Shown piece by piece: positions 18,543 to 24,824 of a DNA stretch of 64,000 nucleotides. Position numbers and translations under genes: made by a program. Each line of letters begins with the position of its first letter. Position 1 is the stretch's first letter. This DNA is from Oceanospirillum multiglobuliferum (GTDB lineage Bacteria; Pseudomonadota; Gammaproteobacteria; Pseudomonadales; Halomonadaceae). The notes beneath the pieces are model-generated. The model was not told the DNA's origin, searched no databases, and was given only the letters and a program-made list of their open reading frames with translations. The stretch is taken from assembly GCF_900167095.1 (NCBI RefSeq), contig NZ_FUXG01000001.1, forward strand, positions 1 through 64,000. Direction: 5' to 3'.

Positions 18543-19625
18543 ATGACAGATCTTTTTACCCCGTTAACACTGGGCGCAGTTGAAATTAAAAACCGTATCC
18601 TTATGGCGCCACTCACCCGCTGCCGTGCCGATGAAAACCATGTGCCAACCGATCTGATTACGGAGCACTATGCGCAGCGTGCCTCCGGTGGTCTGCTGAT
18701 TGCCGAAGCCACTATGGCGATGGAAGGTAACTCAGCATTCTGGCGTGAGCCGGGTATCTATTCCGAGGCTCAGGTTGAAGGCTGGAAAAAGGTGACTGAT
18801 GCCGTTCATGCGAAAGACGGCAAAATTTTCCTGCAGATTTGGCACGGTGGTCGTGCTTGTCACCCTGCTCTGAACGAAGGTAAGCAACCCGTAGCGCCTA
18901 GCGCTATTGCAATTACCAATAGCGACATCCATACGCCAGAGGGTAAGCAGAGCTATACCGTTCCTCGCGCGTTGGACGATGCTGAAATTCCGGCCATTAT
19001 CGAAGGTTTTGCCAAGGCTGCAGAAAATGCCAAACGCGCGGGTTTTGACGGTGTTGAAATTCATGGTGCTAACGGCTACCTGCTGGATGAGTTCCTACGT
19101 GATGGTGCTAACCACCGTGAAGGCCCTTATGGCGGTTCCCTTGAAAACCGCGCCCGTTTGTTGCTGGAAGTGATTGAAGCCGTGAGCAAGGTCTGGGGTT
19201 CGGATCGTGTCGGTGTGCGTCTGTCACCACTGAATACCTTTAACAGCATGAGCGACAGTGATCCGGTTGGTCTGATGACCTGGCTGTCTGAAAAACTGAG
19301 CGGCTATGATCTTGCTTATCTGCACCTGATGCGGGCTAACTTTATGGGCGCAGAGCCGCTAGATGTGATCACGCCAACCCGTGAGCACTACAAGGGCAAT
19401 TTGATTGTAAATATGGGCTACAGCCCGCAGGAAGCACAGCAGGTGGTTGCAGATGGCATCGCCGATGCGGTGGCCTTTGGCGTGCCTTTCCTTGCTAATC
19501 CAGATTTGCCCCATCGCATTAAAGAGGGTGCCGAGTTAAATCAGGCAGACCCCAAGACCTTCTATACTCAAGGATACGCAGGCTATAACGACTACCCAAC
19601 TCTAGACGCACTGGCACTGGCTTAA
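18543..19625 (+). CDS. old yellow enzyme, alkene reductase (NemA-like)
   Basis: FMN flavoenzyme that reduces activated C=C bonds such as N-ethylmaleimide, usually with NADPH. The 360-residue TIM-barrel shows MAPLTRCRA (N-terminal FMN loop), QIWHGGRACHP, EIHGANGYLLDEFLRDGANHR with the substrate-binding residues, and YGGSLENRARLLLEV. TTTAGGA precedes the ATG. It is followed after 15 bp by a glutathione-dependent enzyme, so the two may form a detoxification operon. NemA in E. coli is a reasonable relative; the exact substrate is not known. Confidence 0.9.
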   Translation: MTDLFTPLTLGAVEIKNRILMAPLTRCRADENHVPTDLITEHYAQRASGGLLIAEATMAMEGNSAFWREPGIYSEAQVEGWKKVTDAVHAKDGKIFLQIWHGGRACHPALNEGKQPVAPSAIAITNSDIHTPEGKQSYTVPRALDDAEIPAIIEGFAKAAENAKRAGFDGVEIHGANGYLLDEFLRDGANHREGPYGGSLENRARLLLEVIEAVSKVWGSDRVGVRLSPLNTFNSMSDSDPVGLMTWLSEKLSGYDLAYLHLMRANFMGAEPLDVITPTREHYKGNLIVNMGYSPQEAQQVVADGIADAVAFGVPFLANPDLPHRIKEGAELNQADPKTFYTQGYAGYNDYPTLDALALA

Positions 19626-19640
19626 ACAAAAGGAACTTCT

Positions 19641-20489
19641 ATGACTGACTCAACTTACACGCCACCTAAGGTTTGGCAATGGCAACCTGGTAATGGCGGC
19701 AAGTTTGCCAATATTAACCGTCCGACAGCAGGTGCAACCCATGAGAAAGCATTGCCTGTAGGCACTCATCCTCTACAGTTATACTCAATGGCAACACCCA
19801 ATGGTATCAAAGTGACCATCATGCTAGAGGAGTTGCTGGCGCTAGGTATTCAAGAAGCAGAGTATGATGCTTGGTTGATCGACATTATGGAAGGAGATCA
19901 ATTTAGTTCTGGTTTTGTTGAGATCAACCCCAACTCAAAAATTCCAGCCCTGATGGATCATAGCATTAACCCACCGCAGCGCGTGTTTGAATCCGGTGCC
20001 ATTTTGCTTTATCTCGCCGAGAAGTTTGGTGCCTTTATCCCAAAAGAAGCCCGCGCACGCACCGAGTGTTTAAACTGGGCATTCTGGCAGATGGGTACCG
20101 CGCCTATTCTTGGTGGTGGTTTTGGTCATTTCTATGCCTATGCCCCTGAAAAATTTGAATACCCTATCAATCGCTTCGCTATGGAGATCAAGCGCCAGCT
20201 GGATGTATTAGACCAACATTTAGCCCACAACACTTATTTAGCAGGCGAAGAGTACAGCATCGCAGATATGCTGGTTTGGTCTTGGCATGGCGGGTTAGTG
20301 TTGGGTCGTCTATACGAAGCCGCAGAGTTTTTAGACGTTACCTCATATCAGCATGTGGTACGCTGGGCAAAAACTATAGATCAGCGCCCAGCTGTACAAC
20401 GTGGTCGTATTGTTAACCGCACTTGGGGAGAAACATTTGAGCAGTTACGAGAACGTCATAGCGCCTCTGATTTTGATAGGGTGAAATAA
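19641..20489 (+). CDS. glutathione S-transferase, YghU-like disulfide oxidoreductase
   Basis: Nu-class GST of 282 residues. The N-terminal extension PPKVWQWQPGNGGKFANINRPTAGATHEK is distinctive for YghU, which uses two glutathiones per monomer and reduces disulfides. The thioredoxin fold follows with TPNGIKVTIMLEELLALG and NPNSKIPALMD, then a helical C-terminal domain ending HVVRWAKTIDQRPAVQRG. AAAAGGA precedes the ATG. Close spacing to the old yellow enzyme suggests joint defence against electrophiles. Confidence 0.9.
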   Translation: MTDSTYTPPKVWQWQPGNGGKFANINRPTAGATHEKALPVGTHPLQLYSMATPNGIKVTIMLEELLALGIQEAEYDAWLIDIMEGDQFSSGFVEINPNSKIPALMDHSINPPQRVFESGAILLYLAEKFGAFIPKEARARTECLNWAFWQMGTAPILGGGFGHFYAYAPEKFEYPINRFAMEIKRQLDVLDQHLAHNTYLAGEEYSIADMLVWSWHGGLVLGRLYEAAEFLDVTSYQHVVRWAKTIDQRPAVQRGRIVNRTWGETFEQLRERHSASDFDRVK

Positions 20490-20662: not shown

Positions 20663-22036
20663 ATGTCTAAACTATTGATTACCTGCCTACCTTATCTCAA
20701 TGGCACTGACTATTTTTCCAAAGTTCAGCATCGGGCACTGCCTGTATTACTGGACAGCGGGCAGCCACTTAGCCCATCAGGTCGATATGACATTATTTCT
20801 GCCGATCCAGTGGAGGTAATTAATAGCCAAACACTCGCAACCAGTACCTCACTGGAGGTGTTGCGCACCCACCTAAAGGCCTATCAGCCCGAAGAAGCCG
20901 ATACTGAGATCGAGCTACCCTTTTACGGGGGCTTTATTGGCTATATAAGTTACGATTTTGGGCGAGAGCTGGAGCAGCTGCCCAAGCAAGCACAAGCTGA
21001 TATTGAGTTACCCAAACTACTCGGTGGAATCTACACTTGGGCCATTATTTGCGACCATCAAGAAAAGTGTAGTTATTTAGTTGCCCCTGCTGATGAACAC
21101 CCACAACAGCTGTTACATCTGCAACAGCCAAATAAGATCAACTCTGAACAGACCTTCAAGCTGCAGACCCCGTTCTATGCCAATATGAGCAAGGCGGAGT
21201 ATCGGGCACAGTTTGCTCGTATTATTGAATACATTAAGGCGGGAGACTGTTATCAGATCAACTTCTCACAGCGCTTTAAGGCTCAATGCAGCGGAGACAG
21301 TTGGCAAGCTTATTTGGCTATTCGCTCAGCAACCCCAGCCCCTTTTAGCGCTTATCTGGACTTTGGTCAGCAACAAATTTTGAGCGTGTCACCCGAGCGT
21401 TTTATCAAGCTACAACAGCAACAAGTTGAAACCAAACCGATAAAAGGTACAGCCCCTCGATCAACTAACCCTGAGTTAGATCTACAGTTGGCAGAGGAAC
21501 TACAAGCCAGCTTAAAGAATCGCGCAGAAAATCTGATGATTGTGGATCTGTTGCGAAATGATCTAAGCCGTGTTTGCCAATCAGGCTCCGTTAAAGTACC
21601 CGCACTATTCGCCTTAGAAAGCTATGCCAATGTTCACCATCTTGTCAGCACTATTGTCGGCACGCTTGATGCGGATAAAGATGCACTCGACCTATTGGCC
21701 GCCAGTTTTCCCGGCGGCTCCATCACAGGCGCACCCAAGATTCGTGCAATGGAGATCATTGATGAACTAGAGCCACAGAGACGTACTATTTACTGTGGCT
21801 CGGTGCTATATCTGGATTTTTTCCAGCAGATGGACAGTAACATTACCATTCGCACTTTACTGCATACACAATCAACCGATCCAAAAGCCAGCAATCAACT
21901 TTACTGCTGGGGCGGTGGTGGCATTGTGTATGACTCAGAAGCAGACGCAGAGTATCAAGAGACGCTGCATAAAGTCGGTAAGATTTTATCGGCCTTAGAC
22001 CCTGACTTTTTACAGCATTTCTCAACCGAACATTAG
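20663..22036 (+). CDS. pabB: aminodeoxychorismate synthase component I PabB
   Basis: Makes 4-amino-4-deoxychorismate from chorismate for folate synthesis. The 457-residue protein has the chorismate-binding fold: DCYQINFSQRF, PIKGTAPR (the Lys in this motif marks PabB; TrpE has Ala there), MIVDLLRNDLSRV, and PGGSITGAPKIRAMEIIDELE. Length is normal. The ribosome site is weak. Its 3' end overlaps the 3' end of the convergent histidine kinase gene by 4 bp. Confidence 0.93.
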   Translation: MSKLLITCLPYLNGTDYFSKVQHRALPVLLDSGQPLSPSGRYDIISADPVEVINSQTLATSTSLEVLRTHLKAYQPEEADTEIELPFYGGFIGYISYDFGRELEQLPKQAQADIELPKLLGGIYTWAIICDHQEKCSYLVAPADEHPQQLLHLQQPNKINSEQTFKLQTPFYANMSKAEYRAQFARIIEYIKAGDCYQINFSQRFKAQCSGDSWQAYLAIRSATPAPFSAYLDFGQQQILSVSPERFIKLQQQQVETKPIKGTAPRSTNPELDLQLAEELQASLKNRAENLMIVDLLRNDLSRVCQSGSVKVPALFALESYANVHHLVSTIVGTLDADKDALDLLAASFPGGSITGAPKIRAMEIIDELEPQRRTIYCGSVLYLDFFQQMDSNITIRTLLHTQSTDPKASNQLYCWGGGGIVYDSEADAEYQETLHKVGKILSALDPDFLQHFSTEH

Positions 22037-23403
22037 CCTAAGCTTAAGGGCAAGCCTAAGCTGAACCGACAGCCGTTCGGCTGCAAGTTATGCACTTGAA
22101 CTTGCCCTTGATGCGCCTCAACCACGGCTTTGACCAAACTCAAACCCAGCCCTAAACCTTTTGTTGTACGACTGATATCGGCACGGTATAAGCGATCAAA
22201 AATAAAAGGCAGATCTTGCTCAGCAACACCTTGACCGCTGTCATCAACATGAACCCATAGCTGCTGAGCGGTAACTTCAACCCACAGCTTTACTTGCCCC
22301 TTTTCAGGACTGTACTTGATCGCATTATCCAGTAAGTTGCTCAGCACTTGCCTTAAACGATTCTGATCAGCTCTCAGTGTTGTACCACCCTCACAATCTA
22401 AGGACAGTGTTATTTGTGTCTCTTCTGCCACAAACTCATAGAGCTCAAGCAACTGCTCCAGTAACGGCTTTACCTCAAATACGGTGAGATGAAGCGTCAT
22501 CAACCCCGACTCTGCCTCAGAAATATCCATCAGTGTTGTCAGCATCTGCTCAATGCGCTCAGTGTCCTCAATCAAATCAGCCACATTGTCATAAAGGTCA
22601 GCTTGCGCTTGTATACTGGGAGTTAGCAGGAGTTGTTCAATGCGTAAGCGCTGGCGTGCTAAAGGCGTTCTCAGATCGTGAGCTACATTATCCAACGTCG
22701 CCTTCATGCCTTGAATCAAACGTTCATTGTTAGCTAGAAAACGGTTAGTCTGCTGCACTAATCGATCTAGCTCAGTATGTTGAGCGCGCTCAGGTACTCG
22801 CTCAGATAAATGCTGCCCCGACTGGATACGTGCAACGGTGTCAATCAAATCACGTATCGGTCTTAAGGTTCGGTAATTCAACCAATACAGCAACAATAGG
22901 CTAATTAGATACAGGGGTAGCAACGTCAGTACAATAGCCCACCGATAACCCTCTTGCTGCTGTTGCCTTGGCAAACTGCTCAGACCTAGCGTCAGTTGCC
23001 ATGCTTTCTCCCCAGCCCTTAATGATGTCTCTTGCACAAACCAGCGCTTGCCTGATGTCTCTAGAATTGGCCATTGTGGGTTGACTAGTCGCTTGACCCC
23101 ATCGGCTTCCTCTAAACTTTGATTACTGAACTGCACTTGGCGGTTATGTTTCAACTCGACCAACCACAACGCATCAACCAACTGCTCTTGCTCAATAACC
23201 TCAACAAGCTTATCAGCCCCTGCATGTGTCAAGATACGTTGATAATTATTGAGCCGTGCCTCGATTAAATGACGGTCTTGTCCCACTAATGACTGATAAA
23301 GAAAAAAGTCTGCCAAGGCCGCAAAGAAGAGATAACTGAAGAGCAGCAGCGCACCCAGATAAAAGTTAAGGTAGCCGGATGTGTGCTGTGTTTTAGTGAT
23401 CAT
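22033..23403 (-). CDS. membrane sensor histidine kinase
   Basis: I place the start at the ATG at 23403, whose ATGATCACTAA overlaps the end of the response regulator gene by 11 bp, giving 456 residues. Order: TM1 (about 12-35), a periplasmic domain of about 135 residues, TM2 (about 170-190), HAMP (RPIRDLIDTVARIQSG), HisKA with the phosphorylated His in NVAHDLRTPLARQ, and HATPase with NLLDNAIKYSP, DSGQGV and GLGLGLSLVKAV. General layout resembles QseC/CusS kinases. The stimulus is unknown; the exported HbpS-like protein encoded divergently is the candidate partner. Confidence 0.88.
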   Translation of the reverse strand: MITKTQHTSGYLNFYLGALLLFSYLFFAALADFFLYQSLVGQDRHLIEARLNNYQRILTHAGADKLVEVIEQEQLVDALWLVELKHNRQVQFSNQSLEEADGVKRLVNPQWPILETSGKRWFVQETSLRAGEKAWQLTLGLSSLPRQQQQEGYRWAIVLTLLPLYLISLLLLYWLNYRTLRPIRDLIDTVARIQSGQHLSERVPERAQHTELDRLVQQTNRFLANNERLIQGMKATLDNVAHDLRTPLARQRLRIEQLLLTPSIQAQADLYDNVADLIEDTERIEQMLTTLMDISEAESGLMTLHLTVFEVKPLLEQLLELYEFVAEETQITLSLDCEGGTTLRADQNRLRQVLSNLLDNAIKYSPEKGQVKLWVEVTAQQLWVHVDDSGQGVAEQDLPFIFDRLYRADISRTTKGLGLGLSLVKAVVEAHQGQVQVHNLQPNGCRFSLGLPLSLG

Positions 23404-24097
23404 GAGTCGCCCTTTCGCTAGGCTCAACCCTTAGTACGTAACCCACCCCTCTTAGCGTATGCAGCAGCTTAGGTGTAAATGCCTTGTCCAGCTTAGCGCG
23501 TAACCGACATACCAGTACATCCACGACATTGGTTTGTGGATCAAATTGGTAGTCCCAGACCTGTTCTAGAATCATGGTTTTAGACAGCACTTTGCCTTGA
23601 TGCCTCAGCAGATACTCTAAAAGTGCAAACTCTCTTGGTTGTAAAACCACAGTCTGCCCTTGTCGCGTCACCTTTTTACTGAGCAGATCCAAACTCAGAT
23701 CAGCCAGCTGCAAGACTGTAGCTTCAGGTACTTGTTGCTGACGACGTCTTAATAGCGCTTGCACGCGAGCCTGTAACTCCACAAAGGAAAAAGGCTTCAC
23801 TAAGTAGTCATCGCTTCCGGTTTCTAGCCCTTGTACACGATCATTGACGGTATGGCGCGCACTTAAGATCAAAATAGGAAGGGCGTAGCCTCGCTCACGC
23901 AAGCTTCGAATTAAACTTAAGCCATCTAAGCTGGGGAGCATTAAATCCACTATCGCAACATCAAAAGGCGTCTCAACCATAAGGTTCAGCGCATCATAAC
24001 CATCACTCACATGGCTAACCGTAAAACCTAATGCTTTAAACCCGTTGCAGATAAACTGAGCAATCGTAACGTCATCCTCTACAACCAGTAAGTTCAA
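23393..24097 (-). CDS. OmpR-family response regulator
   Basis: 234 residues: receiver domain with DD (residues 8-9), phospho-acceptor Asp in VAIVDLMLP (about 51) and Lys in LVKPFSF, then a winged-helix DNA-binding domain with LQPREFALLEYLLRHQGKVLSKTMILEQVWDYQFDPQTNVVDVLVCRLRAKL. This is close to the CusR/QseB type. The start is a TTG with a strong GGGGA site 7-8 nt upstream. It is divergent from the GlcG/HbpS gene, so autoregulation and control of that gene are likely. Confidence 0.9.
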   Translation of the reverse strand: MNLLVVEDDVTIAQFICNGFKALGFTVSHVSDGYDALNLMVETPFDVAIVDLMLPSLDGLSLIRSLRERGYALPILILSARHTVNDRVQGLETGSDDYLVKPFSFVELQARVQALLRRRQQQVPEATVLQLADLSLDLLSKKVTRQGQTVVLQPREFALLEYLLRHQGKVLSKTMILEQVWDYQFDPQTNVVDVLVCRLRAKLDKAFTPKLLHTLRGVGYVLRVEPSERATHDH

Positions 24098-24179
24098 GTT
24101 AATCCCCTTATATCCGCTACGCTTTAGTTGTACTCATCATAGCAGTGCCTTCCCACTAGCCCTAGGCAAAGCCGCGAAC

Positions 24180-24195
24180 ATTACCAATTTGTAAT
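24180..24195. promoter_or_regulatory. possible response-regulator site in the divergent region
   Basis: An inverted repeat ATTAC-N6-GTAAT is followed by TTTAG-AAAGG-TTAAGG, loosely like the direct-repeat boxes of OmpR-family regulators. It lies between the regulator and the HbpS-like gene. This is a weak pattern call. Confidence 0.3.
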
Positions 24196-24275
24196 ACTTT
24201 AGAAAGGTTAAGGTAAGCTGCGCTCTGCTAAGTTGGTGACAGCTGACTCAGCTTACACTTTGATAGGACAAACAT

Positions 24276-24773
24276 ATGCGCACATTTAACACTCTTTCTT
24301 TATTCTCATCAGGATTGGCCATGCTGTTCTCTGGCGCTGTCATGGCGGCAACCACAACCAGTACCAGCCTATTAACATCAGACACTGCAACAGCATTAGT
24401 GCAGACCACCGTTGCCGAGTGTCGTGCCGAAGGTTTTGCCACTAGCGCAGCCGTTGTTGATCGGTCGGGTAATCTTCTCGCCTTTGCCCGTCATGAGATG
24501 GCGGGGCCTCACACCATCACCAGCAGCCAGCGCAAAGCATTCACCTCTGCTAGCATGGGACAGGCAACAGGTAAACTGGCCCAACTGGTCACCGACAAAC
24601 CTGCGCTGGCAGGCCTACGCGATATGAACCCTAATTTATTGTTGTTAGAGGGCGGTTTACCGGTGGTTATTAATCAGATTCGCGTTGCAGGCATCGGGGT
24701 TGGTGGCGCACCCGGCGGTCATATTGATGCGGCTTGCGCCCAAAAAGCCCTGACCAAAATTCTGGGCCAATAG
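24276..24773 (+). CDS. exported GlcG/HbpS-family protein
   Basis: 165 residues with a clear signal peptide (about 1-24, cleavage after AVMA). The mature part is a single GlcG/HbpS (DUF336) domain: SAAVVDRSGNLLAFARHEMAGPHTI, SQRKAFTSASMGQ, and GGLPVVINQIRVAGIGVGGAPGGHIDAACAQKAL at the end. In Streptomyces HbpS binds haem and works with the SenS-SenR two-component system; a haem or small-ligand role here is inference. The gene is divergent from an OmpR-type regulator and kinase, which mirrors that arrangement. A strong terminator follows. Confidence 0.85.
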   Translation: MRTFNTLSLFSSGLAMLFSGAVMAATTTSTSLLTSDTATALVQTTVAECRAEGFATSAAVVDRSGNLLAFARHEMAGPHTITSSQRKAFTSASMGQATGKLAQLVTDKPALAGLRDMNPNLLLLEGGLPVVINQIRVAGIGVGGAPGGHIDAACAQKALTKILGQ

Positions 24774-24792: not shown

Positions 24793-24824
24793 AGAGAGAC
24801 GAGTAGTCGTCTCTCTAATCTTTT
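24793..24824 (+). terminator. terminator after the HbpS-like gene
   Basis: Perfect 10-bp stem AGAGAGACGA / TCGTCTCTCT with a GTAG loop (24793-24816), followed by AATCTTTT. Confidence 0.8.

Follow-up and report, generated by a model that had tools for sequence, protein, structure and literature searches.

Comparative sequence analysis indicates that the gene for an exported HbpS/GlcG-like protein forms a real, conserved three-gene unit with a divergently encoded OmpR-family response regulator and membrane histidine kinase in the window (the whole 64-kb stretch of Oceanospirillum multiglobuliferum DNA analyzed here). At a probability of about 0.75, we read this trio as an HprR/CusR-type envelope-stress switch with HbpS as its (principal) output. 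The genes, the conservation of the trio and the layout of the operator are read directly from the DNA, and we infer activation of the HbpS promoter, the nature of the signal, a disulfide in HbpS and a protective role for the protein.

The HbpS-like gene (24276-24773, + strand) is an ORF of 165 amino acids. By reading of the sequence, it starts with a Sec-type signal peptide (approximately residues 1-24) ending in ...AVMA, and the protein carries Cys49, His79 and Cys154. Residues 33-159 matched the whole domain of Pfam PF03928 (E = 2.4e-28; 99 bits against a cut-off of 25), placing the protein in the family. On the - strand, the regulator gene (23393-24097), which has a TTG start, encodes a receiver domain and an OmpR-type winged helix with the rare recognition helix TNVVDVLVCRLR. 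It overlaps the gene for a CusS/CopS-like membrane histidine kinase (22033-23403, - strand) bearing HAMP, HisKA and HATPase domains and a short periplasmic sensor. The initial annotation had described a signal-peptide-bearing GlcG/HbpS protein facing an OmpR-type regulator and membrane kinase at 24097-24773, an interval that runs from the regulator start to the HbpS stop; the Pfam and model matches, the Sec-type signal peptide, and the ORFs and their strands all bore out this description. In the model comparison, the models nearest to the regulator were CusR/CopR and HprR, and its scores lay below every cut-off: 202 bits against 353 for the HprR equivalog, 247 against 420 for the CusR equivalog, and 241 against 279 for the CopR-SilR subfamily. 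Similarly, the top model for the kinase was CopS/SilS-like, with a score under the cut-off, and the kinase also fell below the CusS equivalog cut-off. The HbpS gene is probably monocistronic, because a terminator-like hairpin lies directly 3' of it (24793-24816, + strand; one found against 0.8 expected by chance). A few kilobases from the trio, at 18543-20489, reading of the sequence revealed old-yellow-enzyme-type reductase and glutathione-transferase-like genes, which are electrophile/oxidant stress types. The same genome has a second, more distant HbpS/GlcG-like gene (G000:C38:51674-52009; 28% identity) with no adjacent two-component system.

Conservation of the trio in other genomes, which had been proposed as a check, was found on a broad scale. 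In a search of relatives and one named contig, L002, L003 and L031 had already displayed this divergent arrangement, and in L004 and L007 HbpS had a divergent regulator. We then ran a profile search against two genome samples, 390 from the order and 398 from the phylum, and read 100 neighbourhoods. Over the whole analysis, the divergent trio turned up in seven or more families and also on plasmids of Vibrionaceae. Two divergent kinds could be told apart in the neighbourhoods. Kind A, to which the window belongs, consists of a regulator with the helix TNVVDVLVCRLR, a kinase and HbpS, and is also present on Vibrio and Photobacterium plasmids. Kind B consists of a CusR/HprR-type regulator and a heavy-metal-type kinase (of the CusS type), divergent from HbpS, often with an exported hydroxyisourate hydrolase (hiuH) gene after it, the families being confirmed. 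The gene order in Pantoea agglomerans is kinase and hprR, divergent from uraH and HbpS; in Duffyella gerundensis, kinase and hprR are divergent from HbpS alone, which sits in the hiuH slot. A tree of HbpS places kind A and kind B in distinct clades, set among HbpS genes that belong to other kinds or have no two-component system. In three loci (L067:4639-5004, L068 and L069), the regulator gene encodes only a receiver domain, without the DNA-binding part and without a kinase, but is still divergent from HbpS-hiuH, and the box there is weaker (matching at 9 of 12 bases, see below); we describe this receiver as decaying or stand-alone. Two virulence-type plasmids of Escherichia albertii (L193 and L194) carry an HbpS gene without a two-component system.

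We also examined the linkage from the side of the regulator, by searching for a DNA signature of the kind-A recognition helix without reference to HbpS. The signature, DVLVC, was present in 12 sampled genomes (11 in the 390-genome order survey and one in the phylum sample), and HbpS was adjacent in every one of them; comparison of coordinates showed that all 12 are HbpS trios. Since the signature was built from trio regulators, the figure of 12/12 indicates its absence elsewhere and should not be taken as an unbiased frequency. Among regulators of this class outside the trios, the closest ones, collected with a wider regulator profile as a contrast, have different recognition helices and no adjacent HbpS. 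From the side of HbpS, a kinase and a regulator lie next to the gene in 39 of 60 strong loci, versus none of 20 cytosolic GlcG-like controls (p = 1e-7, uncorrected for kinship), and the other 21 strong loci lack an intact adjacent two-component system. The initial annotation had named independent occurrence of the HbpS-like gene and the kinase in relatives as the observation that would speak against a link. Such independence was seen on one side only: the window's type of kinase and regulator was never found without HbpS in the sampled genomes (12 of 12 with the signature), whereas HbpS often occurs without any kinase.

The DNA between the regulator and HbpS genes contains a candidate operator. 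In E. coli, the box CATTACAAAATTGTAATG (CATTAC-N6-GTAATG) between hprR and hiuH is used by both HprR and CusR, with HprSR responding to reactive chlorine and CusSR to copper (PMC9302797). The window has a box of this type, CATTACCAATTTGTAATA, at 24179-24196 (+ strand), which agrees at 11 of 12 defined bases and is the sole match in the 64 kb (0.17 expected). A box was present in all 25 trio intergenic regions examined, with 9-12 of the 12 bases and per-locus shuffle p values of 0.001-0.053 (L041 being marginal at 0.053); the loci share ancestry, and a pooled p overstates their independence. Upstream regions of HbpS genes outside trios mostly scored 6-9 of 12, with one at 10, and no box stood out at the Pantoea locus. 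In the window's own genome, the one-mismatch box was not commoner than its reversed control (12 sites versus 11). We therefore dropped genome-wide counts as evidence, and it is only the conserved position that makes the box convincing. A chance neighbourhood was ruled out by the conserved trio together with the conserved operator.

Two further half-sites follow the box on the + strand, GAAAG at 24202-24206 and GTAAG at 24213-24217, offset by +11 and +22 relative to the box's second half. When the 12 non-redundant kind-A loci were anchored on this second half-site, the pattern G.AA[GT] was found in 12/12 at exactly +11 and +22 and, within the tested span of 5 to 44, at no further offset. Eleven of these loci had a TA...T element at +37 or +38, corresponding in the window to the -10-like element TAAGTT of the putative HbpS promoter (24229-24234, + strand). 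Direct repeats spaced by 11 bp over the expected -35 region are the usage of OmpR/PhoB-type activators. No sigma-70 promoter of consensus type was found upstream of HbpS, as expected if the promoter is activator-dependent. The box, half-sites and -10-like element are thus arranged as would be expected of an HbpS promoter under activation, and from this arrangement activation may be deduced. The first direction of action indicated by the intergenic DNA is from the regulator to the HbpS promoter, the reverse of HbpS informing the kinase. A defined candidate operator and promoter are now available to test.

Features of the HbpS protein itself follow the two-component association. Cys49 and His79 were invariant in all 44 HbpS proteins adjoining two-component systems of kinds A, B and, as described below, C, whereas Cys49 was missing from all 20 cytosolic GlcG-like controls. 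In every complete alignment row, Cys154 was present wherever Cys49 was, making a Cys49-Cys154 disulfide a likely prediction. The nearest solved structures were 4nkp and HbpS (3fpv); a structure model built from a two-sequence alignment reached a pLDDT of 61 and is informative for the fold only. The best match in both sequence and fold was 4nkp, an extracellular HbpS-like protein of Desulfovibrio piger that likewise has GxHT but, unlike the window protein, has no counterpart to Cys49 within the aligned region. The Streptomyces protein is a haem-binding redox sensor; its haem and iron residues, T113, E78 and E81 (E78xxE81), correspond to L121, T82 and Q85 in the window protein. Because these residues are not conserved, haem binding through them is unsupported, and the haem link drawn by the initial annotation comes down to the family name.

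The trio resembles E. coli HprSR (YedVW)/hiuH-msrPQ and CusSR in that a CusR/HprR-like regulator and a CusS/HprS-like kinase are divergent from an exported-protein gene, with a CATTAC-N6-GTAATG-type box in between. On the Pantoea and Duffyella plasmids, moreover, the NCBI name of the regulator is HprR and HbpS lies in or beside the hiuH slot. By contrast, the E. coli HprSR target is HiuH-MsrPQ rather than HbpS, and the window system differs in recognition helix and kinase sensor, in addition to scoring below the HprR and CusR cut-offs. These similarities suggest HbpS as a new member of the HprR/CusR envelope-stress regulon. The second comparison is with HbpS-SenS-SenR of Streptomyces, where a secreted HbpS-family protein is also encoded with a kinase and a regulator; a common link to oxidative stress is plausible. 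SenR belongs to the NarL family, whereas the window regulator is of the OmpR type, its kinase is a HAMP/HisKA protein, and the gene order is divergent. The window protein also has two Cys and His79 instead of T113, E78 and E81, and its signal peptide contains no twin arginine, consistent with Sec export, whereas Streptomyces HbpS is exported by Tat (PMC3754957). SenR also touches urate-degradation genes, recalling hiuH in the clusters found here (PMC4991794). According to a 2016 paper, only the actinobacterial genes among those for HbpS-like proteins cluster with senS and senR (PMC4991794); in proteobacteria, by contrast, we observed exported HbpS genes adjoining three other two-component classes. 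No description of Gram-negative HbpS-two-component clusters was found in the non-subscription literature searched (HbpS or DUF336 with HprR, hiuH or GlcG kinases).

We propose that envelope stress, most likely caused by oxidants (reactive chlorine species, for example), by metals or by haem-damage products, would activate the kinase. The phosphorylated regulator would then bind the palindromic box and the two direct half-sites, spaced by 11 bp, over the -35 region, and so switch on the HbpS promoter and perhaps its own. The HbpS-like protein would be exported by Sec, would probably be held by the Cys49-Cys154 disulfide, and may bind or detoxify a harmful ligand in the periplasm.

The initial annotation had instead suggested that information passes from the periplasmic protein to the kinase, a link that we agree is worth testing. 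Here HbpS, besides being a target, would sense haem, metal or redox state and control the kinase by contact, as Streptomyces HbpS does with SenS, whose sensor it binds and whose autophosphorylation it modulates; we consider this unlikely, but several observations speak for it. By sequence reading, the periplasmic part of the window kinase contains no Cys or Met with which it could react itself. Following their first membrane helix, kind-A kinases have a common motif, YQR[IL] (YQRI in the window), which is missing from the same region of the nearest kinases without HbpS. These features fit a dedicated system, as does the finding of this kinase and regulator type only beside HbpS, and Streptomyces HbpS offers a precedent as target and sensor at once (PMC4991794, PMC3754957). 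However, a dedicated target gene would yield the same linkage, HbpS often occurs without any kinase (21 of 60 strong loci), and the remainder of the sensor differs strongly between kinase subgroups while HbpS stays similar. The recurrence of exported HbpS beside three unrelated two-component classes (OmpR, HprR and FixJ types) is in keeping with a sensor, but repeated recruitment could produce such pairings whether HbpS served as target or as sensor. Still more speculatively, Gram-negative bacteria may several times have recruited an exported two-Cys HbpS for unrelated systems, as chief output and as a redox-dependent input to the kinase, closing a feedback loop. It is very improbable that HbpS is a GlcG-type metabolic protein with the two-component system as a mere neighbour: the fold is common to GlcG, NahX, EfgA and PduOC proteins, whose roles are different, and HbpS genes occur in many genomic contexts, but the conserved linkage, operator and regulator signature, and the lack of such neighbours in the cytosolic controls, argue against it. 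We therefore favour the stress switch with HbpS as its output; whether HbpS is signal input or output can now be addressed directly in Gram-negative bacteria.

The neighbourhoods also contained a third architecture, kind C, in which a kinase, a FixJ/LuxR-type response regulator and exported HbpS form one co-directional operon. It was present in 18 loci from several classes (L082-L090, L092, L094-L097, L099, L104, L108 and L110), and we found no description of it in the literature searched. In L083 (4484-5161), L094 (3331-3993) and the plasmid loci L196 and L197, an ankyrin-repeat gene directly follows HbpS. The ankyrin-repeat proteins of L083 and L094 appear from their sequences to be exported. 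These genes recall AnkB, a protein that in Pseudomonas supports a catalase.
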